Below, one piece after another: positions 5,021 to 47,881 of a stretch of 64,000 nt of DNA. Numbering within the stretch: the first letter of the stretch is position 1; the number at the start of each line of letters is the position of its first letter. The notes under the pieces were generated by a model, which worked only from the letters and a program-made list of their open reading frames with translations, was not told the DNA's origin and searched no databases. Source of the stretch: Aphelidium insulamus (lineage: Eukaryota; Aphelidiomycota; Aphelidea; Aphelidiaceae). The translations under genes and the position numbers were made by a program. The DNA is taken from NCBI GenBank assembly GCA_036784855.1, contig JAZDSV010000013.1:186001-250000 (forward strand), read 5' to 3'.

Positions 5021-7246
5021 ATGGAATTTACAGTACCACAGCGTCGCCCACACAGCAATGCCACGCCGCCTGTGCACAGCGAGCATCACCACTTTCTGCT
5101 GCACGGCACCGTCCACCCAGCTTCTCTCACCCTGCTGCATCCCGCTGGTGTGGTGGTGGTGTGTCACGGTCTGCTGAGCAGCAGTCGCTCCGCCATCATT
5201 GTGCAACTGGCGCGCATACTCACGGCGGTCGGGGTGCATGTGTGCGCGTTCGACTTTCGTGGCTGTGGTCGCAGTGGTGGCCAGACGTCGTACGGCAACT
5301 ATGACATGGAGATGGAGGATCTGCACGCCGTCATGGAGTACTTGTACTCACGTCAAGGGTGCGTTTTCATTTGTTATAGTGGCATATGAGTGTATATGTC
5401 TGTAGATGTCTATAGCTTGTATTTAAGATCGATTATAACTGTTTGCAGTGACTTGGGGCCAGTGCGCGCAATTGTTGGCCACTCCAAGGCGGCCAGCGTA
5501 GTTCTCATGTGGTTAGAGAGATATGGAGCTTCGTGGCTCACAAAGGACAACAATGGCAGCACGGCAATGAATGTGTTGATGCTTAGCGGGCGGTGTGACA
5601 TGGCCCGGGAACCCACTGCACGCTTCAGTGCCGAGCAGCGGGAAGCACTCGCACGTGATGGACAATTTCTGTGGCGAAAACTCAAGTTTGCAATTAATGA
5701 CATAAGTGGCAGTGACGAGGATGCGTATGTGGACGGCTGCAGTAGCGACTACGTTATTACGGCCGCCGATTTGGACAGACGTCGCAATTTGGATATGCGT
5801 GCGGTGGCCTCGTCAGTGCGTCGGCAGTTTTGCGGCGATTGGCGTGTGGGTGTTTCCGTGGTCCATGGCGATGCTGACCGGGTTGTGCCGGTGGAGGATG
5901 CGGCCGAGTACGCGCGATTGCTGGGCGCCCTGGTGTGCAAGCTGGTGGTTGTGCCCGGTGCGTCACACGGCTGGCTGGAACAGCAAGCAGGAACTGATAC
6001 TCTCAACAAAGCACTGGGCGCTTCTCTATTGCCACTGCTCACCTCACCCCGCCATTCACTGGCTGTTCCGGGCCGATTGTGCATTGTCGGGGAACACAGT
6101 GACTGGGCGGCGGCGTACAACCACCAGTGTCACGGCTATGCAATCGTGGCACCCACACAGCAGGCCATTCACGGCAGTGTGTATGGGAGTGGACACACCT
6201 CTCCAACAGTTCAATGTCTGCCACATTGCTGGGCCGACCTGTACCTGCGGGTTCTGAATCGACCATTTGCCGCGCATGCCGATACTGGCAGAGCCACAAC
6301 AATCATGCGCCTGGATGCAGGTGAACTGCTGGAGTTGGCAAAGCAGGCCGGCTGGTGGAGCTACGTGGCAGGCACCGCACATCAAATCATCTCAACCTTT
6401 GCACTGCCACAGTCGCCAATGGTCGGCACTGAAGTGACCATCGACATACACAGCATGGACTTGCCGGTGCGCAAAGGCTGGTCGTCCAGCGCCGCCATGT
6501 GCGTACTGACTGCACGGGCACTCGGCCAGCACTTTGGACTGGGACTGTCGGCGCTGCAGGAAATGGATATGGCGTACCTCGGCGAGCGGCTCACTGGCTC
6601 TCAGTGCGGTCGCATGGACCAGGCCTGCGCTCTGTTTGGGAATGGAAAAGATGGCCGCGGAGAGGTGGTGCTGTTGGAGTTTGGGCCCAGCGGTGAACTG
6701 GCGCTTACACCAGAACATATTCTTGTCGGTGGTGCCAACGCAGATGTTCCAGCACACAGCGATCCTTCAGAAGCCATACAGCAGCAATCTACGTCCCTAC
6801 ACTTTGTGGTGGTGGACCTCAACGCCGACAAGGACACTCGGTGCATACTTGACTCGCTTCACACAGCGGCCGCCCATAGTGATACTGAGCAGGGAAGACG
6901 GTTGCTTGACTGTCTCGGCGTGGGAAACAAACAGATGGTCATGGCTGCTCGGACCGCGATACTGAACGGCGATGCCGAGGGACTGGGTGCTACCATGTCT
7001 GAATGTCATCGTCGATTCATGGCCAATGTGGCACCGGCCTGTCCACAACAATTGATGGCGCCGGTGCTACACTCGGTGTTGCTGCACCCTCCACTTCAGC
7101 AGCATATTCTCGGTGCCAAGGGCGTCGGTTCACAAGGTGACGGTGCCGCGCAGCTTCTGTGTCGGGATCATCAGGCACAACTGCTAGTGCTGGACGTGAT
7201 TGCCAAGGATTTCCCGGAAATGAGGGCCTTTCCGCTTTCCATCTGA
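5021..7246 (+). CDS. alpha/beta-hydrolase fused to a GHMP-family kinase
   Basis: A 711-residue protein is obtained after removing a 90-bp intron (5359-5448, GTGCGT...GCAG). The N-terminal ~280 residues are a serine-hydrolase fold: oxyanion region VVVVCHG, FDFRGCGRSGG, nucleophile elbow GHSKA, acid in VHGDADRVV and histidine in PGASHGW. From about residue 320 a GHMP kinase follows: PGRLCIVGEHSDW (motif 1), KGWSSSAAM (motif 2, about residue 455) and GAKGVGSQGDGAAQLL (motif 3, about residue 666). The GEHSDW form resembles uncharacterised sugar-kinase-like GHMP proteins more than classical galactokinase (GEHTDY) or mevalonate kinase. All key residues of both halves look intact. The substrate is unknown. 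An enzyme that releases an esterified sugar or polyol and then phosphorylates it would fit, but that is inference. The start at 5021 precedes the first beta strands and no upstream in-frame start looked better. Confidence 0.82.
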
Positions 7247-8741: not shown

Positions 8742-9228
8742 TTTCCTAAAGCTCAATGGCGGGGTCAAATCATTATTTTACAGTTGGCGCGCAGTTACCG
8801 TGGTCAATCAAATATCGCTACTACTAGCATAAATGGCCTCTCCCGAGGATTTGGTAATAATACAGTTCTATTTAAAGTCCTAGTAAACCCGTAACAAGTG
8901 ATTCAACAACTACAGAGCCGGACAATTATTTTTCTCTATGTACCCAGTGGAGCTAGTACTGCTGCTTGTAAAAACGAGAGTGACATTCAATGCATAGCGA
9001 TTGAATACTGACGTGTTTTAGCCTTACAGACATACAGTTAATGCGGCTGAATGAGTGCAAGATAAGAAATGAATGAGAGCAAATGTGGCTGAGCTGAGAA
9101 TGGCGAAAACGGAAATCTGATCGAAGCGACGCCACTTTTCTTTCAACGGGTATAAAAGTACAGCGCCACATAGGCTTTTCATTTTGCATCTGCCCAGACT
9201 AAATTATCATCTCCGAGGCTATTTGAAT
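8742..9228 (+). promoter_or_regulatory. upstream region of secreted protein copy A with TATA box
   Basis: A clear TATAAAAG sits at 9151-9158, 71 bp before the start codon at 9229. The rest of the interval holds no gene that I can support. Confidence 0.55.
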
Positions 9229-9897
9229 ATGAAGTGCTACTCATACTTGGCCATCAGCATTGCCGCAGTGACATTGTTGTCCGTTGACGCGTCCGCTCCC
9301 ACCGCCGATCCGGCTGACAAGGTGGTGGACTTGCGGCGCGCGGCCCGCTCACGGCCCCACCACGCAAAGCCCGATGCGCACACGCCATCCCCCGCAAGCA
9401 AGCCGCCCCATGCTGCCCCGCCGCCGTACGTGCCGCCAGTGGCGCACACAACGGGCAGTAGCGCCAGCTCCCACACAAACGTGAACGTGAACCACAATAG
9501 CGGCGGCGGCGGTGGCGGCGATGGATTCTTTACCGGCTTTCTGCTGGGCGGCCTGACCAACCATCCGGCACCGGCACCCGCGCCAGCACCCGCGTCCAGT
9601 GTTGTGGTGGTGAACGGTGGTGGCCAGCCGCAAGCCGCCGCGAACGGTAGCGCACCGGCCCAGCCGCCAGCACCACCCGCGGACCCAGTGGACGCGAATG
9701 GAATGGTCACGGTCCTACCCAAGGAGATCCGCATAATACCGGAGCGCAGCCCAAAGTGGCTGGCAGACACCGTGGCGTGCGACTACTCCAAGGAGAAGAT
9801 CAAGGCGGCCGAGATCAAGTGCGAGAAAGAGCTCGGCCTGGATGACTGCGAGTTTGAGAAGGAGAAGTATTGCGCCGTGGTCTACGATCCAAAGTAG
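9229..9897 (+). CDS. secreted Pro/Gly-rich protein with four-Cys tail, copy A
   Basis: A 222-residue unspliced protein. MKCYSYLAISIAAVTLLSVDA is a signal peptide. It is followed by a basic Pro/His segment, PPPYVPP, THTNVNVNHN, a Gly run, GFFTGFLLGGL, an Ala-Pro repeat and VVVVNGGGQPQ. The C-terminal ~60 residues (VTVLPKEIRIIPE to CAVVYDPK) are ordered and carry four cysteines: C-x13-C-x8-C-x7-C-AVVY. A Gly codon present in copies B and D is missing after the first Cys. The last third and the 3' flank are nearly identical to copy B, while the N-terminal half differs, which suggests gene conversion. It is probably a cell-surface or wall-associated structural protein. I recognise no named family. 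Confidence 0.82.
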   Translation: MKCYSYLAISIAAVTLLSVDASAPTADPADKVVDLRRAARSRPHHAKPDAHTPSPASKPPHAAPPPYVPPVAHTTGSSASSHTNVNVNHNSGGGGGGDGFFTGFLLGGLTNHPAPAPAPAPASSVVVVNGGGQPQAAANGSAPAQPPAPPADPVDANGMVTVLPKEIRIIPERSPKWLADTVACDYSKEKIKAAEIKCEKELGLDDCEFEKEKYCAVVYDPK

Positions 9898-10302
9898 TAG
9901 TGTCGCCGCCAGATTCTGGTTCTTCATTCATACATCAATATCTTTAATCAAGTTCCTAAGCAATTTTTTTTTGTTTGATAATAGCGTGTATTAAAATGTA
10001 ATAAGTTTCCAAGCGGGTATAAGTGGAAAATCTACTACCATAACTAATACGTAATTTCCGTTCAAGTGTCTGGTAAAGTACACTACTGGGATGAACCAGA
10101 CTTAAGAACAGTTTGACGGCGTATAGTCCGAGAGTCTGAAAGAAGCCGTGAAGCTAGAGAAAAACGCCGCCTCACTTCTGGAAGTGGCGCAGCAATCGTG
10201 GCGTCCAATCAGCGCGCTTGCCTGAATGGACTTCGGCTTTGGCACTTTTCACAGGTTTTCACATTCTCGTATCGCGTCAGCGCGCTTCACAGCTTGGATA
10301 CC

Positions 10303-11487
10303 ATGAAGTGCGCGTCCCTGGCCATTTGTGCAGTGTTGACGGTGCTTGCTGCACGGGTGGACGCATCTGTCGGTGTGGCACCAATTGGCCAGGCGATTGA
10401 CGCTAGTGGGACTACCACTGCCACAAATCTGGCACGTGCACCAAGGGCATCACGCCCGGCTCACAAGTCTCCGGCCCGTGTATCTCACCCGGCAACGCGC
10501 AAATCTACGGCTTCAACTCCCACGCCCACACCAACTCCGGTATCCAAGCGTGCTGCAGTGTCGACCCCCAAACCTGCACCAGTCCCGGCAACCAAACCGG
10601 CAGTAACTGCGCCAAATCCTGTGGCTTCCACCCTCAAACCGGCTCCAGCTGCGGCACCAAAGCCGGCTCCAACTCCGACACCAAAGCCTGCTGCGGTATC
10701 CACGCCCAAACCCGCGCCAGCGCCAACTCCGGCACCCAAACCAGCTCCAGTACCGGCGCCGAAACCCGCATCGATAGCAAAGCCGCGCAGTGCACCAAAG
10801 CCAATGCAGAATCAAGTCGCGACCTCGCGCAGCCAAGCCGCGTCCACACGTGGCCAAGCCGAAAAAGTGGCGGCAAGCCGCGCAAGCAGAGTCAAGCCGA
10901 AACCACGGCCGCCTCCGTACGTGCCGCCAACGCGTTACGTACACGGCACCAGCGCCACCACGCATACAAACGTCAATGTGTACAACCATGGGGGCGGCGG
11001 TGGCGGCGGCGGAATGGACAGCGGGTTCTTCACGGGATATCTGCTGGGCGGCATGAACAACCATCCGGCGCCGGCACCGGTGGCCGCCGCAACACCCAGT
11101 GTCATTGTGGTGAACGGTGGTGGCCAGCCGCAGCCTGCCGCCACCGGACCGCAGCCACTGCAACCGGGTGCAAATGGGCAGCCACAGGCGGGGCCGGTCC
11201 CGACTACCGGCGCTGCACCCACGTCACAAACTCCGGCGCAACCGGGGCAGCCGCCAGCACCACCCGCGGACCCGGTGGACGCGAATGGAATGGTCACGGT
11301 CCTACCCAAGGAGATCCGCATAATACCGGAGCACAGCCCAAAGTGGCTGGCTGACACCGTGGCGTGCGGCGACTATTCCAAGGAAAAGATTAAGGCGGCC
11401 GAGATCAAGTGCGAGAAAGAGCTCGGCCTGGATGACTGCGAGTTTGAGAAGGAGAAGTATTGCGCCGTGGTCTACGATCCAAAGTAG
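10303..11487 (+). CDS. secreted Pro/Gly-rich protein with four-Cys tail, copy B
   Basis: The start is set at 10303 because the translation opens with a signal peptide (MKCASLAICAVLTVLAARVDA). An in-frame upstream extension to 10198 lacks any such feature. The mature part has a Lys/Thr/Pro-rich region of imperfect KPAPxPxP repeats (about residues 60-170) and a basic Arg/Lys patch. PPPYVPPTRYV, THTNVNVYNHGG and a Gly run, GFFTGYLLGGMNNHP, VIVVNGGGQPQ and another Pro/Gln stretch follow. The conserved tail is VTVLPKEIRIIPE...CAVVYDPK with spacing C-x14-C-x8-C-x7-C. A CCAATCA box (10205-10211) lies about 95 bp upstream. An extended Pro-rich stalk carrying a small disulphide-bonded module is the likely form; the function is unknown. 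Confidence 0.82.
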   Translation: MKCASLAICAVLTVLAARVDASVGVAPIGQAIDASGTTTATNLARAPRASRPAHKSPARVSHPATRKSTASTPTPTPTPVSKRAAVSTPKPAPVPATKPAVTAPNPVASTLKPAPAAAPKPAPTPTPKPAAVSTPKPAPAPTPAPKPAPVPAPKPASIAKPRSAPKPMQNQVATSRSQAASTRGQAEKVAASRASRVKPKPRPPPYVPPTRYVHGTSATTHTNVNVYNHGGGGGGGGMDSGFFTGYLLGGMNNHPAPAPVAAATPSVIVVNGGGQPQPAATGPQPLQPGANGQPQAGPVPTTGAAPTSQTPAQPGQPPAPPADPVDANGMVTVLPKEIRIIPEHSPKWLADTVACGDYSKEKIKAAEIKCEKELGLDDCEFEKEKYCAVVYDPK

Positions 11488-11890
11488 TAGTGTCGCCGCC
11501 AGATTCTGGTTCTTCATTCATACATCAATATCTTTAATCAAGTTCCTAAGCAATTTTTTTTTGTTTGATAATAGCGTGTATTAAAATGTAATAAGTTTCC
11601 AAGCGGGTATAAGTGGAAAATCTACTACCATAACTAATACGTAATTTCCGTTCAAGTGTCTGGTAAAGTACACTACTGGGATGAACCAGACTTAAGAGCA
11701 GTTTGACGGCGTATAGTCCGAGAGTCTGAAAGAAGCCGTGAAGCTAGAGAAAACGCCGCCTCACTTCTGGAAGTGGCGCAGCAATCGTGGCGTCCAATCA
11801 GCGCGCTTGCCTGAATGGACTTCGGCTTTGGCACTTTTCACAGGTTTCGCATTCTCGTATCGCGTCAGCGCGCTTCACAGCTTGGATACC

Positions 11891-13076
11891 ATGAAGTGCG
11901 CGTCCCTGGCCATTTGTGCAGTGTTGACGGTGCTTGCTGCACGGGTGGACGCATCTGTCGGTGTGGCACCAATTGGCCAGGCGATTGACGCTAGTGGGAC
12001 TACCACTGCCACAAATCTGGCACGTGCACCAAGGGCATCACGCCCGGCTCACAAGTCTCCGGCCCGTGTATCTCACCCGGCAACGCGCAAATCTACGGCT
12101 TCAACTCCACGCCCACACCAACTCCGGTATCAAGCGTGCTGCGAGTTGTCGACCCCCAAACCTGCACCAGTCCCGGCAACCAAACCGGCAGTAACTGCGC
12201 CAAATCCTGTGGCTTCCACCCCCAAACCGGCTCCAGCTGCGGCACCAAAGCCGGCTCCAACTCCGACACCAAAGCCTGCTGCGGTATCCACGCCCAAACC
12301 CGCGCCGGCGCCAACTCCGCGCACCCAAACCAGCTCCAGTACCGGCGCCGAAACCCGCATCGATAGCAAAGCCGCGCAGTGCACAAAGCCAATGCGAATC
12401 AAGTCGCGACCTCGCTAGCCAAGACCGCGTCCACGCGTGGCCAAGCCGAAAAAGTGGCGGCCAAGCCGCGCAAGCGAATCAAGCCGAAACCACGGCCGCC
12501 TCCGTACGTGCCGCCAACGGCGTACGCAGCGGCACCAGCGCCACCACGCATACAAACGTCGAATGTGTACAACCATAGGGGCGGCGGTGGCGGCGGCGAT
12601 GGACAGCGGGTTCTTCACGGGATATCTGCTGGGCGGCATGAACAACCATCCGGCGGCACCGGTGGCCGCCGCCAACACCAGTGTCATTGTGGTGAACGGT
12701 GGTGGCCAGCCGCAGCCTGCCGCCACCAGGACCGCAGCCACTGCAACCGGGTGCAAATGGGCAGCCACAGGCAGGCCGGATCCCGACTACCGGCGCTGCA
12801 CCCACGTCACAAACTCCGGCGCAACCGGGGCAGCCGCCAGCACCACCCGCGGACCCGGTGGACGCGAATGGAATGGTCACGGTCCTACCCAAGGAGATCC
12901 GCATAATACCGGAGTTGGTGTGGCCCAAAGTGGCTGGCAGACACCGTGGCGTGCGGCACTACTCCAAGGAGAAGATCAAGGCGGCCGAGATCAAGTGCGA
13001 GAAAGAGCTCGGCCTGGATGACTGCGAGTTTGAGAAGGAGAAGTATTGCGCCGTGGTCTACGATCCAAAGAAGTAG
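11891..13076 (+). pseudogene. secreted Pro/Gly-rich protein, copy C (several frame breaks)
   Basis: This unit lines up with copies B and D end to end, from the signal peptide at 11891 to the terminal YDPKK stop at 13076. It carries many single-base gains and losses, for example near 12110-12150, 12320, 12390-12420, 12580 and 12920-12960, so the reading frame changes at least four times. Several lesions shorten runs of identical bases. That pattern is equally expected from relaxed constraint after duplication or from poor consensus in a collapsed tandem array. Confidence 0.75.
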
Positions 13077-13479
13077 TGTCGCCGCCAGATTCTGGTTCTT
13101 CATTCATACATCAATATCTTTAATCAAGTCCTAAGCAATTTTTTTTTGTTTGATAATAGCGTGTATTAAAATGTAATAAGTTTCCAAGCGGGTATAAGTG
13201 GAAAATCTACTACCATAACTAATACGTAATTTCTGTTCAAATTCTCTGGTAAAGTACACTACTGGGATGAACCAGACTCAAGAACGGTTTGACGGCGTAT
13301 AGTCCGAGAGTCTGAAAGAAGCCGTGAAGCCAGAGAAGAAACGCCGCCTCACTTCTGGAAGTGGCGCAGCAATCGTGGCGTCCAATCAGCGCGCTTGCCT
13401 GAATGGACTTCGGCTTTGGCACTTTTCACAGGTTTTCACATTCTCGTATCGCGTCAGCGCGCTTCACAGCTTGGATACC

Positions 13480-14661
13480 ATGAAGTGCGCGTCCCTGGCC
13501 ATTTGTGCAGTGTTGACGGTGCTTGCTGCACGGGTGGACGCATCTGTCGGTGTGGCACCAATTGGCCAGGCGATTGACGCTAGTGGGACTACCACTGCCA
13601 CAAATCTGGCACGTGCACCAAGGGCATCACGCCCGGCTCACAAGTCTCCGGCCCGTGTATCTCACCCGGCAACGCGCAAATCTACGGCTTCAACTCCCAC
13701 GCCCACACCAACTCCGGTATCCAAGCGTGCTGCAGTGTCGACCCCCAAACCTGCACCAGTCCCGGCAACCAAACCGGCAGTAACTGCGCCAAATCCTGTG
13801 GCTTCCACCCCCAAACCGGCTCCAGCTGCGGCACCAAAGCCGGCTCCAACTCCGACACCAAAGCCTGCTGCAGTATCCACGCCCAAACCCGCGCCGGCGC
13901 CAACTCCGGCACCCAAACCAGCTCCAGTACCGGCGCCGAAACCCGCATCGATAGCAAAGCCGCGCAGTGCACCAAAGCCAATGCGAATCAAGTCGCGACC
14001 TCGCGCAGCCAAGCCGCGTCCACACGTGGCCAAGCCGAAAAAAGTGGCGGCCAAGCCGCGCAAGCAAGTCAAGCCGAAACCACGGCCGCCTCCGTACGTG
14101 CCGCCAACGCGTTACGTACACGGCACCAGCGCCACCACGCATACAAACGTCAATGTGTACAACCATGGGGGCGGCGGTGGCGGCGGCGGAATGGACAGCG
14201 GGTTCTTCACGGGATATCTGCTGGGCGGCATGAACAACCATCCGGCGCCAGCACCGGTGGCCGCCGCAACACCCAGTGTCATTGTGGTGAACGGTGGTGG
14301 ACAGCCGCAGCCTGTCGCCACCGGACCGCAGCCGCTGCAACCGGGTGCAAATGGGCAGCCACAGGCGGGGCCGGTCCCGACTACCGGCGCTGCACCCACG
14401 TCACAAACTCCGGCGCAACCGGGGCAGCCGCCAGCACCACCCGCGGACCCGGTGGACGCGAATGGAATGGTCACGGTCCTACCCAAGGAGATCCGCATAA
14501 TACCGGAGCACAGCCCAAAGTGGCTGGCTGACACCGTGGCGTGCGGCGACTATTCCAAGGAAAAGATCAAGGCAGCGGTAGTCAAGTGCAAGCGCCAGTT
14601 GAACCTGGATGACTGCGAGTTTGAGAAGAGACTGTGCGCCGTGGTCTACGATCCAAAGTAG
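13480..14661 (+). CDS. secreted Pro/Gly-rich protein with four-Cys tail, copy D
   Basis: The frame is intact and the domain order matches copy B: signal peptide, KPAP repeats, PPPYVPPTRYV, Gly run, GFFTGYLLGGM, VIVVNGGGQPQ and the Cys tail. The last 30 residues differ from B: AVVKCKRQLNLDDC and EFEKRLCAVVYDPK, giving spacing C-x14-C-x8-C-x6-C. The 3' flank also departs from the shared repeat right after the stop, so D marks the downstream edge of the homogenised array. The divergent tail shows which positions tolerate change: the four Cys and AVVYDP are kept. Confidence 0.82.
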   Translation: MKCASLAICAVLTVLAARVDASVGVAPIGQAIDASGTTTATNLARAPRASRPAHKSPARVSHPATRKSTASTPTPTPTPVSKRAAVSTPKPAPVPATKPAVTAPNPVASTPKPAPAAAPKPAPTPTPKPAAVSTPKPAPAPTPAPKPAPVPAPKPASIAKPRSAPKPMRIKSRPRAAKPRPHVAKPKKVAAKPRKQVKPKPRPPPYVPPTRYVHGTSATTHTNVNVYNHGGGGGGGGMDSGFFTGYLLGGMNNHPAPAPVAAATPSVIVVNGGGQPQPVATGPQPLQPGANGQPQAGPVPTTGAAPTSQTPAQPGQPPAPPADPVDANGMVTVLPKEIRIIPEHSPKWLADTVACGDYSKEKIKAAVVKCKRQLNLDDCEFEKRLCAVVYDPK

Positions 14662-23967: not shown

Positions 23968-25029
23968 ATGCGTGTCGCCTGGAAAATGCTGGCTGCCATG
24001 GCGGCGACTATCTGCGCGCACATGGCGCACGCGTCGGTCCCGTCACAGCCACCACCGAGTGCAGTGACAACGTCGAGTCGATGCACGGCCGACACTGGTC
24101 CCGAGGTCAGCACCACGCTCGCGCAAGTGTTTGCCGATGATGGCGGCATGCCGGATTTCGCTGCCGATTTCGACGCCATGGACACCGACAATGATGGCCG
24201 CATCGGCGTCGGAGAGTCGCGACGGTACTTTAATAATGCAGTCTCGTACGCATCCACAATCAGGAGCCAGGTGCTGGTGGGCAATGTGCCCGATTTGGCC
24301 GATGAGAATGGTAAGCTACACACTATACAAGAATGGTGCATATTATCTGTATTCACACTGGCCATATGCATAGATGACGGCAAGGTGATCAAGAAGGAAT
24401 TTCTGGACGGCATGACCAGGCTGTGGAACACGTCGTTCACGTCGTGCGCCGGCCTGTGCGACTCCATCGACCGCAAGCTGACTGGATGCGGCTACGGCAC
24501 CTCCGTGCTCAGCGACACCGCCAACCCGCAGGCCATCTATATGATGCGCGGCTGTCGACTAGGCGCCCCGGCATTCGACCCGTTTGCCCAGTGTGTGCGC
24601 GCCCGCAGTTGTGATCTGCTGCGTACCTGCTTCGACATGGTGGCCAGGCAGCAGTGTGGCCAGCATATGGTGCAGGGATTTGCCGTGGCCTTCAAGTCTG
24701 TGGGCAAGGCCGCGGACCCATACGCATATCAAACTAACGGCACCACCACCACCAACGGCACCAGCACAGTAGGCAACAACGCGACGCTATTGCAGGCGGA
24801 ACGCGCCAAGCGCCAGTCCGACATCTACCGGTGGTTGGGACTGTCGTTGGTGGGAGTCGTGGCCACGCTGCTGTCAATGTTCCGCTCACTATCGCTGCTG
24901 TTGACGATGCTGGCACTGACCTATGCGGCCATGTTTATCACCGCGGTGAAGTCGTTCAGCACCGCGGGAGACCGGATAGCACTGCGCGGACCCATTGTAG
25001 ACGTGTGCAGCACACAGCCGCTCCAATAA
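23968..25029 (+). CDS. secreted EF-hand/Cys-rich protein with two C-terminal TM segments (diverged family member)
   Basis: Two exons (23968-24310, 24374-25029) give 332 residues. There is a signal peptide to AHAS, then SVPSQPPPSAVTTSSRC, shared with the four genes at 42.8-47.9 kb. An EF-hand loop follows (DTDNDGRIGVGE), and a second acidic loop starts at the exon junction (ENDDGKVIKKEF). Next is a Cys-rich domain: FTSCAGLCDS, KLTGCGYGTS, MMRGCRLG, FAQCVRARSC, CFDM and QQCGQH. An N-glycosylation-rich linker (NGT repeats) precedes two hydrophobic helices and an AGDRIALRGPIVDVC end. The phase-1 intron position matches the tandem relatives. The 63-bp intron is in frame and stop-free, so a retained form would also be readable. 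A calcium-responsive membrane protein of unknown role is a reasonable guess. Confidence 0.8.
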   Translation: MRVAWKMLAAMAATICAHMAHASVPSQPPPSAVTTSSRCTADTGPEVSTTLAQVFADDGGMPDFAADFDAMDTDNDGRIGVGESRRYFNNAVSYASTIRSQVLVGNVPDLADENGKLHTIQEWCILSVFTLAICIDDGKVIKKEFLDGMTRLWNTSFTSCAGLCDSIDRKLTGCGYGTSVLSDTANPQAIYMMRGCRLGAPAFDPFAQCVRARSCDLLRTCFDMVARQQCGQHMVQGFAVAFKSVGKAADPYAYQTNGTTTTNGTSTVGNNATLLQAERAKRQSDIYRWLGLSLVGVVATLLSMFRSLSLLLTMLALTYAAMFITAVKSFSTAGDRIALRGPIVDVCSTQPLQ

Positions 25030-34430: not shown

Positions 34431-34449
34431 TTTTGTTCATTCACTTGAA

Positions 34450-35682
34450 ATGAAGTTTGCCATCACAGCGTGCATCCATGCTGTGATTTTTTTTGTCTGA
34501 TCGTCAATACAGTGGCTTTGCGTTCTGCTTTGGTGTTTGATGAGGTACCGGAGCAAACATTTCGTATGGGCGATATGGTGCAGAACGCTTCTGATCCGAC
34601 TGCTAAACATATGTGCATGAATGAACCGTGCAGCACAAAAAACAGTTTGCGACCTTTACGTGCGGAGAAAATGATTTATAGTACGGGGTGGTTTCTTTTT
34701 TCCACTGCGTCACTCAGTATTGAGAATGGAAATATGTCGTCTGATGATTCGAAAGCAGCCGATTTGACGCTAACGCCCGCAGTCCTTCAGTGGGATGAAT
34801 ACAATTCTACGCGCTTGCCATTCTACGAGTACATTGGTACGGGTACTACATCTGCAAGCGTTCCAGAACAAGCAATTGCCACTAAGGAAATTTTTTTGTT
34901 CATTGGGAGAAGCAACGAGAAGGTGACAAATCAATGGAATTCCTTCAGTGGACAGTTAGTGCGCCAATACTCAACCGGCCCTCCGGTCAGCATTGAGGTC
35001 TACGATGATAGTCTATTTGTTGAGACACCAGTTTTCCAGCTGGAAAACTCTAGGTCTTACTCAATCCAGCAGTGGAACATAACCACAGGGCAGCACATTC
35101 GTGATTTCGCAGCCAAAGGGCCTATGGTCGTCAAAGAAGGATTTCTTTTTGCGGCCATTATAAGTGGGACAATTTTGCAGTGGGACACCGGATCGGGGAA
35201 ATTTATCAGGTCATTTAACGCAGAATCGCCAAAGCAGCTAATCTATGAAAATAGTTTGCTATATATTGTTTCAGAATCGGGCACGGAGCAGCGGCATGTC
35301 AAGAATGGTATGCTATTAAGATTAAGATCATTTTCCGCAACTTCCAAGGGAACGGCTGATGATCTTGTTCATATTTTTCGCAGCAGCATGTTTAAACTAA
35401 CTTGTTAACTCCACGAATCTTCTACAATGGGATCTCGAAGGTGAACAGGAAACGCCATTTAATTTGCAGCAATTTTCATCATGGACTAATCGCTATGGCA
35501 CCATTATGTTCAACGATAGGTTGCTCTATCATGCGGAGAATGAAGTGTTACAATACCGAGTGCCAAATCTTGGAACTCCTACTATGTTGGAGACAAGTCA
35601 GGCTTCCGTTTCACTCGGTACCTTAGCAACAGCACAACTTCTAGGGTCCGCTCTTTTGGTATTAATTTTGTGGGATTTGTGA
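34450..35682 (+). pseudogene. secreted propeller-like repeat protein, damaged paralogue
   Basis: It aligns through most of its length with the intact gene at 36275: TFRMGDMV, CSTKNSLRPLRAEKM, LFIGRSNEKVT, IQQWNITTGQHIRDF, LQWDTGSGKFIRSF, YHAENEVLQYR and a hydrophobic C-terminus. Two frame problems are visible. A signal peptide starting at 34450 runs into a stop after a run of eight T, while the body frame starts at 34470. Near 35409 one extra T separates the body from the last ~90 residues. Each is a single-base change. Confidence 0.7.
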
Positions 35683-36274
35683 TTTTCGATGGGCAAAATC
35701 CGAGTAAAATAAAATATATTGGTCACCATCTATGTATATACTAAAGTTCGGCTCACCGATCATAGTATATACATAGATAACCCTAACCATCAAGCAGGCC
35801 GCATATATTTTGATAACGTTTCATGGGGTGAACACTTATATATGGTTCAATATACACCGAAAAGTCGTAACATTTCAACTTAATATCAAAAACTGTGTTC
35901 TATCTTGAAAATTATTATGTAACTTGAAATTTTATGCATTCTGACCGCCAACTAGCTTGTCGCTTTCAACGTGAAACTTGAAAATCTGCCGATTTTCCTG
36001 TGCAGGTACGGTAGGGCCCAACTTTGACCAGTTCCGTTGAATAGCAAATCAGGAATGTATATGAGTCCAAATACAGCATACACGTGGATTTCTGACTTGT
36101 GTGCTCGATGTGAAAACCATTATGACGGACGACACATAGTTTTACTCTGCCTTGCCATCTGCCGTCCGTCAGCACGATGAAACTGTTGTACCAATCACCA
36201 CGAAGTTCAGAGTTTCACAAATGGATTCGGTTAGAACTTAACAGAGTTTACAAACCTCTCGAGCACTTATTAAA
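35683..36274. repeat. intergenic with a 16-bp-arm inverted repeat
   Basis: Perfect arms at 35728-35743 and 35763-35778 flank a 19-base loop, about 45 bp after the end of the damaged paralogue. The remaining ~500 bp up to the next gene hold nothing recognised. Confidence 0.7.
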
Positions 36275-37456
36275 ATGATATTTTCTACCAGCTTAGCAGC
36301 GTGCGGCGCGTACGCATTGACTTTAGCTAGCTTATCCAGTGGCATTGACGCTACCAGTATGGCACAAGTTTACGACACTACACCGTGGAACACATATCGC
36401 ATGGGTGACATGGTGCGCGATGCAAATAACCCAAGCGCGGTGGCAGAGTGCACCACAGACGCGTGCATCAAGAAGAATCGCGCACGCGGATTACGTGCCG
36501 AGAAAATGGTGGGCTTGTATGAAGATATATTCTCCACCGCGACGCTCAGTTTTGGAACAAGTGGCGCGGGTTCAGTGATCCAACAGTGGAAGACATACAA
36601 ATCGAGTTTGCCAACACGCGAATACATTGATAACGGCATGGAAACTTCAAGCGACGTAATCACTGCAATTTGCACTGATGGGACTTACTTGTTTTTTGGT
36701 CGAGGTTCCGAAGATGTTACCAGTCAGTACCAAGCCACCTCTGGAAAGCTGGTGCGTCAGTTTGCAACCGGCCGTCCCAAAGACATGCAAGTCGACAGGG
36801 ACAACTTGTTTGTCTTTACGGATAACACCAACTCAAGCCCGTCATCCATTCAGCAGTGGAGCATTTCAACAGGAAAGCTGATTCGGATCTACGAAGCAAC
36901 AGGACCATTGGCTGCAGCAAACACCGCCTTATTCGCGCGTAATATCACCACTGGCGGCATTAACCAGTGGAACACAACAACCGGTAAACTAATTCAATCA
37001 TTTAACGTCCAGTCGGCTACTCAGTTATTTGTCAACTCAAACACCATCTACATTGTAACCGACACGCACACTGAACAATGGTCCGTTAGTACTGCCACAC
37101 GCCAAAGGTCCTTTACTGCTTCCTCGACAGGAACCCTTGGCGATCAGATCTACTTTTACGGTTTTTCTTTGTACAAAATAAGCAATACCACGGATTTGCT
37201 TCAGTGGGACGTGAATGGTGATCAAGAAACGCCGTTCAACATGCAGCGATTTCCCGAGTGGACCAACAAGTACGGCACATTATTGTTTGGTGGGTTGACA
37301 ATGTGTTACCACGCTGAGAACGAAATTTACCGCTATGGGCCTCCGCACTCTGCGTATCCCAACATGCTGGAGACCAAAAACTCAGAGTCTCCAGCTTCAA
37401 AGATATCTGTCGTGACAGCAATACTAATTGGAACACTACTATTTTCGATTCTTTGA
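36275..37456 (+). CDS. secreted, probably GPI-anchored propeller-like repeat protein
   Basis: 393 residues, unspliced. The signal peptide ends about SSGIDA. Repeats of the form IQQW...STGKLIRxF (residues ~110-310; for example IQQWSISTGKLIRIYEA, INQWNTTTGKLIQSFN, TEQWSVSTATRQRSF, LLQWDVNGDQ) resemble a beta-propeller of quinoprotein/WD type without catalytic motifs. The C-terminus (SKISVVTAILIGTLLFSIL), with a small-residue stretch before it and no basic tail, fits a GPI-anchor signal. Two Cys pairs lie in the N-terminal third. It is a paralogue of the broken gene 0.6 kb upstream. No named family was recognised; an adhesin or receptor-like surface role is inference. Confidence 0.72.
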   Translation: MIFSTSLAACGAYALTLASLSSGIDATSMAQVYDTTPWNTYRMGDMVRDANNPSAVAECTTDACIKKNRARGLRAEKMVGLYEDIFSTATLSFGTSGAGSVIQQWKTYKSSLPTREYIDNGMETSSDVITAICTDGTYLFFGRGSEDVTSQYQATSGKLVRQFATGRPKDMQVDRDNLFVFTDNTNSSPSSIQQWSISTGKLIRIYEATGPLAAANTALFARNITTGGINQWNTTTGKLIQSFNVQSATQLFVNSNTIYIVTDTHTEQWSVSTATRQRSFTASSTGTLGDQIYFYGFSLYKISNTTDLLQWDVNGDQETPFNMQRFPEWTNKYGTLLFGGLTMCYHAENEIYRYGPPHSAYPNMLETKNSESPASKISVVTAILIGTLLFSIL

Positions 37457-40472: not shown

Positions 40473-41682
<1,210 letters not shown>

Positions 41683-42797: not shown

Positions 42798-43900
42798 TCA
42801 GTATTGCTGCACGAGACACGCGTCGTTTAGCGGACCCAGAAGCGCAATCAAATGGCCGGCACCATCCACATTAGCTCCAAGTGCAGCGAAGAAAGCACCG
42901 ACTGCCAACAAGACGAGTGGCATACCAATCCAAGGATTTCCCGCCGCCCAAACTATCGATCCAACAATGATGGCGGCAATGTCGGCAAAGATTGACAAAA
43001 CAATTCCCAATACTTTGGCTGTCGCTTTGTTGATAAGCCTTCTTTGCTCTGACATGATCAAAGTTGCATTTTGAGACACGTTCAGCGAGGTGGTGTTGGC
43101 TGTGTGCAAATTGTTTCCAGGCTTGCCATGCCCGGTGGCGGAAGTACTGCCGTGTGTAGCATTACCCCCGTGCACGGCCTTCATGGTCATGGCAATATTT
43201 GCGGAACTAAAGTGCCCACATTGACGCTCTGCCGCTAACTCAAAGCATTGGGACATTTGATCACAGGTGCGCTGGTTAACACACAACGCAAACGGCCGAA
43301 AGTCCGGAGAGCCCAAGTGACAGGAGCGCATCATGAAGACGGCATTTTCACTCCGGGTTTCTCCGAACCTTGATGTGTCGATGCCGCATCCATTCAGTTT
43401 GCGTTCGACCTTATCGCAAACCCCGATGCACACTGTAAAGGTCATATTCCACATCCGCTGCATGCCGGCCACAAATTCTGGCTTGGAGGTCTTTCCATCT
43501 CCTAATAATATCAATAAGTACATATATCATCGTATCATATCGTACCGTTGGAATCGCTAAGTTCTGGCACATCACCCACTGTAACCTTATCCTTGACTTT
43601 AGAATAGTTCTGAGGGTCAAGTACGCGCATGTAGTAGTTCCTCGACTCTTTTCTAGTAATCCTGCCATTCTTGTCCGTGTCAATTTCGTCATACACGGCG
43701 CCAAAGTCTGGGATTGCGTGCGGGTCATCGGAAAATTCGGCGGCCAGTGTGGTGACGCTTTCTGGACCAGTATCATCGGTGCAGCGACTGGACGCTGTCA
43801 CGGCACTCGGAGCCGGCTGCGCGGGCACAGACGCGTAAACAATAGGGGCATAGAGCGCAACTACTACTAATAGTGCGCAAGTCACTGCGCTGTAAAGCAT
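42798..43900 (-). CDS. EF-hand/Cys-rich two-TM secretory protein, tandem copy 1
   Basis: Two exons (43900-43546, 43501-42798) give 352 residues. A signal peptide (MLYSAVTCALLVVVALYAP) and SVPAQPAPSAVTASSRC open the protein. One EF-hand loop is clear (DTDKNGRITRKE); a second acidic loop (SNGDGKTSKPEF) spans the splice site. The Cys-rich domain runs CIGVCDKVERKLNGCGIDTS, MMRSCHLG, LCVNQRTCDQMSQC and RQCGHF. An N-glycosylated linker, two hydrophobic helices and GHLIALLGPLNDAC complete it. The order matches the 24-kb relative. The function is unknown; calcium-sensing in the secretory pathway or plasma membrane is a plausible inference. Confidence 0.82.
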
Positions 43901-44053
43901 TTTGGTGCCACCAACGCGAAAATATTGTGCAAATTGTATTCGTTTCTGGCGCTTTGCCTTCTTTTCAGAACGCTGATGCACGCGAGCCAATCATCGAACA
44001 GCAGGCAAGTTCATGGAAAAATGAAAATTCTATATCCTGGTCTATGTAAGAAA

Positions 44054-45143
44054 TTATCCAGACATTACACATGCGTCATTCAGCGGCCCCAAAAGCGCAA
44101 TCATATTTCCAGCACCGTCCACCTTGGATCGTAAAGTGGCAATAAATGCGCCAACCGCCAGTATCATCAAAGTAAGGCCTAGCCAATGCTTTTGCAGTGA
44201 CAAAAGAGTAATACCGACTGCAAGAACAAAATATTCAGCCAAAATGGACCAGACTTGGAGCGATACATGCAATCTCTTGTTGGCATTAATTCTTTTTTGC
44301 TCCTTCATGACCGCGGTGGCGTTTTGAGATACATTCGTCTGGTTTTCGGGCTTGGAATGGGCGGCGGTATGCGTGCTTTGTGTCTTATTTGACGAAGCTT
44401 TCTCCTCAAGCGCGGTGTTCACGGTAATCGCAATGTTTGCCGAACTGTAGCGTCCACATTGACGCGCTGCCGCCTCGTCAAAGCACTGATACATTTGATC
44501 GCACGTGCGCCGGTTGACGCAATTTGCAAACAGACTAAAGTCTGGGGAGCCAAGGCGGCAGGTGCGCATTAGGTAGACTGCATTTTCACTAGAGGTCTCT
44601 CCAAACTTTGATGTGTCAATGCCACACCCGTTCAGTTTGCGCTCCACTTTGTCGCATAATCCGATACAAGCTGTAAAGGTCATATTCCAAAGCCGCTGCA
44701 TTCCCGTCACATACTCGGTCTTGGAGGTCTTTCCATCTCCTGATAAAGGTTAAATTTTGTTTATCCGTAAATGTGTATGCACATGCATACCGTTAGAATC
44801 GCTTAGCCATGTCACATTAGCTACCGCCACTCTAATGACTTTGGTGTAGAACTCCGGAAACAGTACGCGCAAATAGTAATCCCTCGACTCTTGCCTGCTG
44901 ATACTGCTATCATTGTTTGCGTCAATAACATCGAACACGGCACCGAAATCCGGGATGGCCTGCGGATCATCCCGGAAACTCCGCGGCCAGTGTGGTGGCG
45001 CGTTCCGGTCCCGTCTCGTTGGTGCAGCGACTGGATGCTGTTACGGCACTCGGAGGCGGCTGCGCGGGCACTGACGCGTAAACAGCGTGAGAATTGTTTA
45101 CGCCAATTAATAATAGCGCGCAAGTCACTGCGCCCTGAAGCAT
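44054..45143 (-). pseudogene. EF-hand/Cys-rich two-TM protein, tandem copy 2 (one frameshift)
   Basis: Exon 1 (45143-44791) and exon 2 (44739-44054) carry all family parts: signal peptide, SVPAQPPPSAVTASSRC, Cys-rich domain and two helices ending in GNMIALLGPLNDAC. Near 44975, one extra base (relative to copies 3 and 4) shifts the frame inside the AAEFADDP segment. The summed exon length is one over a multiple of three, as that predicts. The EF loop is also atypical (DANNDSSISRQE, with Gly6 replaced by Ser). It is either a recent loss or a single-base sequence error. Confidence 0.75.
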
Positions 45144-45334
45144 CTTGGTGCCGCCAACTCGCAAAAGTCAATTATTGTGGCGTTCTGCCTTCTTTTTCAA
45201 TCCCTTTCCACGTGAGCCAATCATAGAGCGCAGATGTCTGGCAGTTGGTATCGCCTGACGCTTAGCAGTTTCCATAATGACTATTGTCGATTAACATGAT
45301 GTAAGTGCGTATGAGTTTATATAATGTGCGCTTC

Positions 45335-46435
45335 TCAGTATTGCGGTATAACACACGCATTATTCAACGGCCCCAAGAGCGAAATCATATGGCCAGCCCC
45401 GTCAGCATTGGTTCGGAACGAGGCAATGAAAGCTCCCAATGCCAAGATAAGTATGGGAATGCCGAGCCAAGCGTTTCCTCCTGCCGATATGAGTAAACCA
45501 GCCATAAAGACGAACGATTCCACTAGTATCGACAGTAAACCCAGTGATACGTGAGCGGCCGCTTTGTTGTTCAAGCTTTTTTGCTCCGCCTTGATCATGG
45601 TTGAATTTTGAGACACGTTCAGTGAGGGTTGGGAACTGTTTTCAGGCCTGGAATGGGCGTTAATGGGCAGGTTACTTTGTGTCGAATTTGTTGCAACTTT
45701 ACTGCCACGTAAGGCTTTCATGGTCACGGCAATATTTGCCGAGCTAAAATGTCCACACTGCCGCACTGCCGCCTCGTCAAAACATTCGTACATCTGATCG
45801 CACGTGCGCTGGTTGACGCACGAGGCAAAGAGATCAAAGTCGGGGGACCCGAGACGACAGGTGCGCATCATAAAGATGGCATTTTCACTCGAGGTCTCAC
45901 CGAATTTTGAAGTGTCAATGCCACATCCATTCAGCTTACGTTCAACCTTATCGCAAGCTCCAATACACGCCGTAAAGGTCATGTTCCACAGCCGCTGAAA
46001 GCCAGCCACGAATTCTGGCTTGGAAGTCATTCCATCTCCTAATTATGTTGTTAACGACCAGTGCACATTTCTTCATGATCATACCGTACCGTTGGAATCG
46101 CTGAGTTCGGGCACATTACCCACAGACACTTTGTCCTTGACATTGATGTAGGTATTGGGGAACAATGCGTGCATATAGTAGTTCCTCGACTCCTTTCGGC
46201 TGATTCTGCCGTCCTTGTCCGTGTCGATTTCGTCAAACACGTCGTCGAAATACGGGATGGCGTGCGGATCATCGGCAAATTCGGCGGCCAGGGTCGTGGC
46301 ACGTTCCGGTCCCGTCTCGTCAGTGCAGCGACTAGATGCCGTCACCGCACTCGGAGGCGGCTGCGCCGGCGCTGACGCGAAGGCATTCGTTGTAAATGCT
46401 GCTAGGATCAGGAACAATAGCGCGCCGAATCGCAT
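45335..46435 (-). CDS. EF-hand/Cys-rich two-TM secretory protein, tandem copy 3
   Basis: Exons 46435-46090 and 46038-45335 (51-bp intron) give 349 residues. The signal peptide (MRFGALLFLILAAFTTNAFA) differs in sequence from those of the neighbours, while SAPAQPPPSAVTASSRC is kept. The EF loop DTDKDGRISRKE has all ligands. In the second loop the splice gives NGDGMTSKPEF. The Cys-rich domain keeps all spacing (CIGACDKVERKLNGCGIDTS, MMRTCRLG, SCVNQRTCDQMYEC). The Asn/Ser-rich linker has several N-x-S/T sites. The tail GHMISLLGPLNNAC precedes VIPQY, as in copy 1 (VQQY). Confidence 0.82.
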
Positions 46436-46773
46436 TGTTATTTTCAGCGAGGCGACAATGTAATTTTGTGGCGTTTTCCCTTGCTATGGCCTCGGCCAAT
46501 CATGTACCGTTTGTAGCGATACACTGTTCAGCACGGTGGATTTTCCCATATATTCTACCAAAAGATCACTGAACAACAAATTTATTTTTGGGACTAGTCG
46601 CAGTCACCAGTGTGTGTATGTCATGCCAATTTTGCTTGAAAATACGCCTTTAAAGCGCTCTAGTCCAGAGAATTCAGATGCAGCATGAGTAATTTCAGCA
46701 TACAGCAAATTATATGCCGCTTCTCCTATACAACGTACGGAAGAGTGAACATCTTTCTGCATGTATTCTATGG

Positions 46774-47881
46774 TTACTGATAGACACAGGCGTCATTAAG
46801 CGGCCCCAGCAGCGCAATCATATTTCCAGCACCGTCGACCTTGGATCGCATGGTGGCAATAAATGCACCAAACGCCAATATTATTAAAGTAATGCCCACC
46901 CAAGGCACGACCTCTATCCAAAATAAAATTCCGATTGCAACGACTAGATATTCAGCCAAAACGGACCAGAGTTGGAGCGATCCATGTCTTCTCTTGTTGT
47001 CATTAATCCTTTTTTGCTCTCTCATCACCTCGGTAGCGTTTTGAGATACATTCAGAGTGGTGCTGGTTGATGTTTGGTTTCCAAGTTTGGTATGGGTGGC
47101 GGTAGACTTGCTTTGTGTCCCGTTGGATAATACTCTCTCCTGAAGCGTGGTGTTCATGGTAATCGCGATGTTAGCCGAACTGTAGCGTCCACACTGGCGC
47201 GCTGCCGCCTCGTCAAAGCACTGATACATTTGATCGCACGTGCGCTGGTTAACGCACTTTGCAAACTGACCAAAGTCTGGGGAGCCGAGGCGGCAGGTGC
47301 GCATTAGGTAGACTGTATTTTCACTGGTGGTCTCTCCAAACTTTGAGGTGTCAATGCCACACCCGTTCAGTTTGCGCTCCACTTTGTCACACAATCCAAT
47401 ACACGCTGTAAAGGTCATATTCCACAGTTGCTGCATGCCGGTCACAAATTCTAGCTTGGATGTCTTTCCATCTCCTGACAAAAGTTGTTTCTTGTCACAC
47501 AAACATAATATGCACGCGCTTACCGTTGGAATCGCTAAGCCCTGTCACGTTTACCACCGTCACTCTATCTTTGATTTTGGTATAGAAATCCGGAAACAGC
47601 ACGCGCATATAGTATTCCTTCGACTCTTGCCTGCTGATGTTACCATCGTTGTCCGTGTCAATAACGTCGAACACCGCACCGAAATCCGGGATGGCCTGCG
47701 GATCATCCGCAAACTCCGCGGCAAGTGTGGTGGCGCGCTCAGGTCCCGTCTCGTCGGTGCAGCGACTAGATGCCGTCACTGCACTCGGCGGAGGTCGCGC
47801 CGACGCCGATGCGGCGGCATTCGAAGAAAATGATGCTAGCAAAAGGAATATTGGCGCACACGTGGCCGCACCGAAATACAT
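46774..47881 (-). CDS. EF-hand/Cys-rich two-TM secretory protein, tandem copy 4
   Basis: Exons 47881-47524 and 47474-46774 (49-bp intron) give 352 residues. Signal peptide MYFGAATCAPIFLLLASFSS, then ASARPPPSAVTASSRC. The EF loop is DTDNDGNISRQE, the second loop NGDGKTSKLEF. The Cys-rich segment and linker are closest to copy 2 (LFPDFYTK/LFPEFYTK, YQCFDEAAARQCGRYSS, MREQKRINDNKR against MKEQKRINANKR). Copies 1+3 and 2+4 therefore look like sister pairs, which suggests duplication of a two-gene block. It ends in GNMIALLGPLNDAC. Confidence 0.82.

Follow-up and report, generated by a model that had tools for sequence, protein, structure and literature searches.

EF-hand loops are filled with calcium in the calcium-rich cell exterior and in the lumen of the endoplasmic reticulum (ER), and several described systems carry them there. 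SPARC/osteonectin has its EF-hand pair outside the cell, within an ectodomain that contains disulfides, STIM1 and STIM2 have an EF pair followed by a SAM domain, a single transmembrane (TM) helix and a long cytosolic coiled-coil, and the CREC proteins have about six EF-hands and an ER retention signal. Here we describe a group of EF-hand genes in a 64,000-nucleotide (nt) stretch of the Aphelidium insulamus assembly GCA_036784855.1 (contig JAZDSV010000013.1, positions 186,001–250,000). We refer to this whole stretch as the window, and all coordinates below are window positions. Four two-exon genes, g1 to g4, form a tandem array on the minus strand at 42798–47881, and a fifth paralog, d24, lies on the plus strand at 23968–25029. 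We propose, with about even confidence, that they belong to an expanded protein family specific to its lineage, whose members are secreted and anchored in the membrane; their ectodomains would be stabilised by calcium, locked by disulfides and carried on a C-terminal hydrophobic hairpin, and they would have a role at the cell surface.

Genes, copy number and conserved anatomy

In the array, g1 (42798–43900) consists of exon 1 at 43546–43900, a 44 nt intron at 43502–43545 and exon 2 at 42798–43501, and encodes 352 amino acids. The corresponding parts of g3 (45335–46435; 349 amino acids) are at 46090–46435, 46039–46089 (51 nt) and 45335–46038, and those of g4 (46774–47881; 352 amino acids) at 47524–47881, 47475–47523 (49 nt) and 46774–47474. 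The distant paralog d24 (23968–25029, plus strand; 332 amino acids) has exon 1 at 23968–24310, an intron of 63 nt at 24311–24373 and exon 2 at 24374–25029. In g2 (44054–45143), exon 1 (44791–45143) is broken in frame, the intron is at 44740–44790 (51 nt), and exon 2 (44054–44739, its end taken from the open reading frame) is open. The ATG frame of g2 stops after 58 amino acids and the stretch encoding the first EF-hand is open in a different frame, so that g2 either was broken recently or reflects an error of assembly; the other four copies are intact as read. A preliminary description of this DNA had named all five genes, and each is present where it was placed, albeit with g2 in this damaged state. 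It had also noted a conserved phase-1 intron in the second EF loop, and this is seen in all five: every gene has one short GT..AG intron of phase 1, which splits the fourth codon of that loop. At 63 nt, the d24 intron is divisible by three and free of in-frame stops, and its retention would add 21 residues to EF loop 2; one further intron, in model C42_63290, was flagged as having the same two properties. The open d24 intron is probably due to chance.

The four intact proteins share a signal-peptide-like start and a PSAVTASSRC-like motif, both as first described, followed by EF loop 1, a Cys-rich domain, a sequon-bearing linker and C-terminal hydrophobic segments. The second loop had been undersold: beside the one good EF-hand recognised originally, EF loop 2 is canonical by its ligands in g1, where the spliced loop reads DSNGDGKTSKPE, and in g3, g4 and d24. 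In g4, with positions calculated by hand on the minus strand, EF loop 1 is DTDNDGNISRQE (residues 75–86, 47624–47659), the intron-split EF loop 2 is DSNGDGKTSKLE (residues 117–128, 47449–47533), the core of the Cys domain, with the seven cysteines that all full-length models have (see below), comprises residues 144–205 (47218–47403), and the hydrophobic hairpin, residues 288–326 (46855–46971), contains two 19-residue windows with mean hydropathies of 2.10 and 2.38.

Searches of the window's own assembly (17.95 Mb, 169 contigs) with the five proteins gave 36, 67, 47, 53 and 43 matching stretches, with the exons of one gene counted separately. A family profile run on the fetched loci located 43 further places with a Cys core, weak and partial ones included; adding the five window genes and a fragment at one end of contig C72 brings the total to about 49 Cys-domain places. 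Since the last query added only C72 to the earlier ones, few further places seem to remain at this sensitivity. The actual gene count is below 49, as some contigs are near copies of each other: C49 resembles the start of C92, and C17 and C155 carry an identical pair of proteins. These two contig pairs, with their near-identical or identical members, suggest that haplotypes were retained, or that duplication was recent, in this assembly. Gene modelling from 40 anchors gave 37 stop-free models, with three anchors yielding none; 11 of the 37 are partial, some perhaps because the modelling was simple, and the 26 full-length ones, together with g1, g3, g4 and d24, make up the 30 full-length models to which the following counts refer.

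The first EF-hand has D at position 1, D, N or S at positions 3 and 5, and E or D at position 12 in 27 of the 30 (25 as uninterrupted 12-residue loops and two, C92_2932 and C49_1503, with loops one residue short). All ligands of the second are present in 22; three of the eight exceptions (C41_9205, C49_1503 and C49_7476) look mis-spliced by the simple modelling, three copies on C42 and one on C82 have lost ligands, and C49_6205 has an extra residue in its model. Most of these models thus retain their EF ligands, whose loss in most homologues had been named in advance as a ground for rejecting the family. A simple rule finds a signal-peptide-like start in 26 models. The preliminary description had spoken of an eight-Cys domain, and eight cysteines are indeed conserved, although they are arranged as one before the EF pair, in exon 1 (29/30), and seven after it, in exon 2 (30/30 for each). 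The window copies have a further cysteine in the domain (C214 in g4), which occurs in eight models. The C-terminal cysteine of the GPLNDAC-like end, proposed as a shared feature, is found in seven and marks a close subgroup only, and what had been called a glycosylated linker contains sequons only. Among 34 introns in models of fetched loci, 25 interrupt one and the same codon of EF loop 2 in phase 1 (19 placed by alignment column and six, in partial models, by eye), three, on C42, lie one codon earlier, and six are elsewhere. The models were picked by profile score, which biases them towards the shared intron position; the five window genes also have that position. Because the intron and the cysteines are shared, common descent of the family members is the only sensible reading.

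With a threshold of mean hydropathy ≥1.6 in 19-residue windows, two hydrophobic segments follow the linker in 22 models, one in seven (d24 included) and none in one. The two TM helices of the first account are thus matched by hydropathy in most members and not in all. The chain continues for 2–35 residues beyond the second hydrophobic window.

Selection was estimated segment by segment with a Nei-Gojobori script as the ratio of nonsynonymous to synonymous divergence (dN/dS) among g1 to g4, and for exon 1 among g1, g3 and g4. Values are 0.056–0.124 for the Cys domain, 0.12–0.19 for exon 1, 0.18–0.50 for the hairpin plus tail and 0.40–0.70 for the linker; the Cys domain and the exon carrying EF1 are under constraint. 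In no computed pair or segment does the ratio reach 1 (the pair g2/d24 is saturated and gives no value), which leaves the idea of a rapidly diversifying antigen unsupported.

In a phylogenetic tree g2 and g4 pair strongly (99/96) and g1 and g3 moderately (91/73), with the C32 copy at 171 kb joining next; the four genes and the C32 copy fall in an eight-row group with C41 and d24 (92/91). The pairing suggested at the outset (1 with 3, 2 with 4) is thus firm for the second pair and less so for the first. The dN of g1/g3 (0.228) is the second lowest after that of g2/g4 (0.127), in agreement with the tree. The block duplication that had been read from this pairing is not supported: a single event turning [g1 g2] into [g3 g4] should leave equal dS in both pairs, yet the exon-2 values are 0.40 for g2/g4 and 1.21 for g1/g3, the latter near saturation and inside the 1.14–1.37 range of unpaired copies. 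A single block duplication does not fit without later gene conversion.

Relation to known families

At E≤0.001 the only Pfam matches of g1, g3, g4, d24 and an 11-member set of the family are to EF-hands. EF-hand_5 passes its curated cut-off in g3 (28.7 against 25.9 bits), while the matches in g1, g4 and d24 stay below the cut-offs; the paired model EF-hand_7 is found at E≤0.1 in nine of the 11 members and is below its curated cut-off in g1, g3, g4 and d24. A profile of the 11 members matched calcium-binding EF pairs in the PDB over both loops (single-domain E of 3.8e-5 for 2m7n, as well as calmodulins), and g4 as a single sequence gave weak matches, the best at E 0.023. By sequence, the proteins have two of the defining features of the EF-hand superfamily: 12-residue loops with ligands at positions 1, 3 and 5 and an acidic residue at 12, and the occurrence of such loops in pairs.

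The pair resembles that of calmodulin in its two loops, in their ligand pattern and in the profile match over both. Unlike calmodulin-type pairs, those of the family follow a signal-peptide-like start and precede a membrane segment, are flanked by a cysteine on the N-terminal side and the seven-cysteine domain on the other, have loops 42 residues apart from start to start in g4, and have the shared phase-1 intron splitting loop 2. The family would share with SPARC/osteonectin the placement of an EF pair in a disulfide-bonded ectodomain outside the cell, but nothing other than EF-hands is recognised in it by Pfam at E≤0.001, and it has C-terminal hydrophobic segments.

The Cys domain has no convincing match in Pfam or the PDB. 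A profile search with it had been proposed as a check, and no known family was matched. Alone against the PDB it gave nothing convincing, with four sequences at E≤10 and the best, LDLRAD3, at 0.17; against Pfam, the domains of 15 members matched six families weakly, each in one member (Cx9C, Toxin_32, vanabin-2 and three others). We take all of these weak matches to reflect chance likeness of cysteine spacing, and likewise regard as chance the single-member matches of the 11-member set to DUF4062, Toxin_32, DUF2207_C, DUF1554 and DUF7133 (E 0.0059–0.065). The CHCH/Cx9C family (PF16860) has in common with our proteins one C-x9-C spacing (C148–C158 of g4), and matched one of the 15 members weakly (E 0.0033). 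The other 14 were unmatched, however, the conserved pattern has no second Cx9C of the kind that forms the two helices of twin Cx9C proteins, and the family has a signal-peptide-like start.

Among 5.8 billion proteins, no homolog of g4 was found at E≤10 in 3127 candidates, and none of the 11-member alignment at E≤1 in 7999 candidates scored. This silence is weak evidence of novelty, because a control gene from the same window, a GHMP-kinase fusion, is also without close kin in that set: its best match is 42% identical over 62%, and the organism names given among the best 120 of 1204 matches are bacterial. Close kin of the organism are probably absent from the protein set. Two stretches of viral contigs fit one search pattern and neither encodes a relative of the family, and no title or abstract start among the papers listed by literature searches describes such a family. 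The view that no described family has this order of parts therefore holds as far as the Pfam, PDB and protein-set searches reach. The parts themselves (EF-hands, cysteines and a hydrophobic tail) are ordinary; their combination may be new.

Genome context and neighbouring genes

Chitin synthase 2 (PF03142) matches 20 stretches of the genome, the best at E 8.2e-235, although controls are also positive in four bacteria, which weakens the weak stretches. The dynein heavy-chain lid domain (PF18198) matches nine stretches with silent controls. Chlorophyll a/b-binding protein has no match in the genome, with a positive control in Synechococcus. These results fit a eukaryote that makes chitin, may have a flagellum and lacks a light-harvesting protein. 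A lineage marker within the window is a polyubiquitin gene at 40708–41682 (plus strand) of about four units with no residues between them. Rhizarian polyubiquitin has one or two residues between monomers, according to PMC3014934, and on that account the lack of junction residues in the window disfavours a rhizarian origin, plasmodiophorids included.

Other genes of the window also encode secreted-looking proteins. At 9121–14661 (plus strand) are Pro/Gly-rich proteins with C-terminal ends CEFEKEKYCAVVYDPK or similar; the copies at 10117, 11717 and 13303 have the common start MKCASLAICAVLTVL, and the frame 11717–12418 is without the shared end. A sub-threshold Pfam SARAF match in the copy at 9121 falls in low-complexity sequence and is probably meaningless. 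Two similar proteins at 34449–37456 (plus strand), with repeated QWN/QWS stretches that look beta-propeller-like by eye, have no Pfam match at E≤0.001, and the second has a C-terminal hydrophobic stretch resembling a glycosylphosphatidylinositol (GPI) signal. The control gene mentioned above (5390–7246, plus strand) reads as a GHMP/galactokinase domain after an alpha/beta-hydrolase-like N-terminal half; the names among its matches listed are all bacterial, many of them cyanobacterial.

Possible roles of the family

From the features of the predicted proteins, the following course of events can be proposed. The signal peptide would bring the chain into the secretory pathway, and the ectodomain would comprise the EF-hand pair and then the seven-cysteine domain. 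Seven conserved cysteines, an odd number, follow the EF pair and one precedes it, and for this reason a disulfide bridge across the pair is very probable; it would hold the two modules together as one unit. Both loops are predicted to be occupied by calcium in the exterior or the ER lumen, which would stabilise the fold. The variable, sequon-bearing linker and the short-looped hydrophobic hairpin would then anchor the ectodomain in the membrane, in support of which 29 of the 30 models have one or more hydrophobic segments towards the C-terminus. Tandem duplication, with purifying selection on the ectodomain and the loss of some copies, may have produced a diversified set of calcium-dependent surface proteins. 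Adhesion, recognition, or attachment to a wall or coat are our guesses as to their role, and this is the weakest step.

Several observations weigh against this proposal. The positive-inside rule predicts the placement of basic residues relative to membrane-spanning segments. The fraction of K and R is 0.180 in the 15 residues before the hairpin and 0.138 in up to 15 residues after it, as against 0.064 in the hairpin loop and 0.098 in the ectodomain; in 25 models the two flanks are more basic than the loop, in three they equal it and in two they are less basic, a comparison made within this family, among non-independent paralogs, of two flanks with one often very short loop. For a luminal N-terminal domain on an ordinary spanning hairpin, the basic outer flanks would oppose the rule, and the pattern is an unexplained regularity. 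The ectodomain is strongly constrained, which speaks against a surface antigen that varies fast. Counts over the 30 models are not independent, as these include identical and near-identical pairs. Finally, two structure predictions, made from five sequences for exon 2 only and thus beginning inside EF loop 2, are of low confidence, with mean predicted local distance difference test (pLDDT) scores of 45.9 and 54.5; a Foldseek search of the PDB with the latter model gave nothing at E≤0.001, a result on which we place no interpretation.

A STIM-like luminal calcium sensor, in which loss of store calcium from the EF pair would alter the Cys domain or hairpin and signal through the membrane, is in our view unlikely. 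The resemblance is at most that of a presumably luminal EF pair beside a second domain and a membrane segment, and g1 matches EF-hand_STIM1 weakly (E 0.28; 11.8 bits, with the cut-off at 32.2). No SAM domain was found after the EF pair in Pfam scans of g1, g3, g4 and d24 or among the matches of the 11-member set, however, and in place of a single TM helix and a long cytosolic coiled-coil there are usually two hydrophobic segments and the short C-terminal remainder noted above. These two departures lower the case for a STIM as such and only mildly that for sensing of luminal calcium. Genome searches with Orai and RYDR_ITPR gave no match, but the controls were equally silent and the result is uninformative. 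Luminal sensing had been put forward in the preliminary description, but the sequence does not separate sensing from structural binding, and surface proteins would suit the roughly 49 places of this many-copied family better than a sensor of store calcium would. The emergence of STIM1/2 is also reported, in PMC7016017, to lie around the base of animals. The same paper describes lineage-specific expansions of calcium-store proteins and cites, as unpublished observations, Cys-rich domains beside calmodulin homologs in cyanobacteria, and to this extent the general idea has precedent.

It is rather improbable that the proteins are secreted to interact with a host, a prey or a symbiont, as an expanding set of exports whose tail acts on membranes. 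Such a set would account for the tandem arrays, several of them on short contigs (C41, 16 kb; C49, 15 kb; C80, 10 kb; C17, 25 kb), for at least one broken copy (g2) and for the further secreted-looking families of the window that lack a Pfam match, yet the ectodomain is under purifying selection in the pairs tested and nearly all models (29/30) retain the hydrophobic tail. We see only a slim chance for a bolder idea, in which the proteins would be multi-copy, convergently evolved calcium switches on the outer or luminal face of the membrane. Calcium loading of the disulfide-clamped EF pair would then govern how the hydrophobic hairpin with its basic flanks lies in, or inserts into, the exoplasmic leaflet, and the Cys domain would have a new fold. 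Membrane-anchored but otherwise calumenin- or reticulocalbin-like ER residents for folding or calcium buffering are very improbable: the EF pair, sequons and cysteines suit the ER lumen, but none of the 30 models ends in KDEL or HDEL (C41_10947, ending in YNEL, comes closest), there are two EF-hands rather than about six, and the copy number is high for a housekeeping buffer.

If the surface proposal is true, an 18-Mb eukaryotic genome would contain several dozen calcium-dependent ectodomains of a family without a name. The family is under purifying selection where tested, and its Cys domain goes unrecognised in sequence searches of Pfam and the PDB. The hairpins would show a charge arrangement departing from the usual topology rule, and the family would offer a test bed for the origin of calcium-stabilised adhesive or receptor modules.

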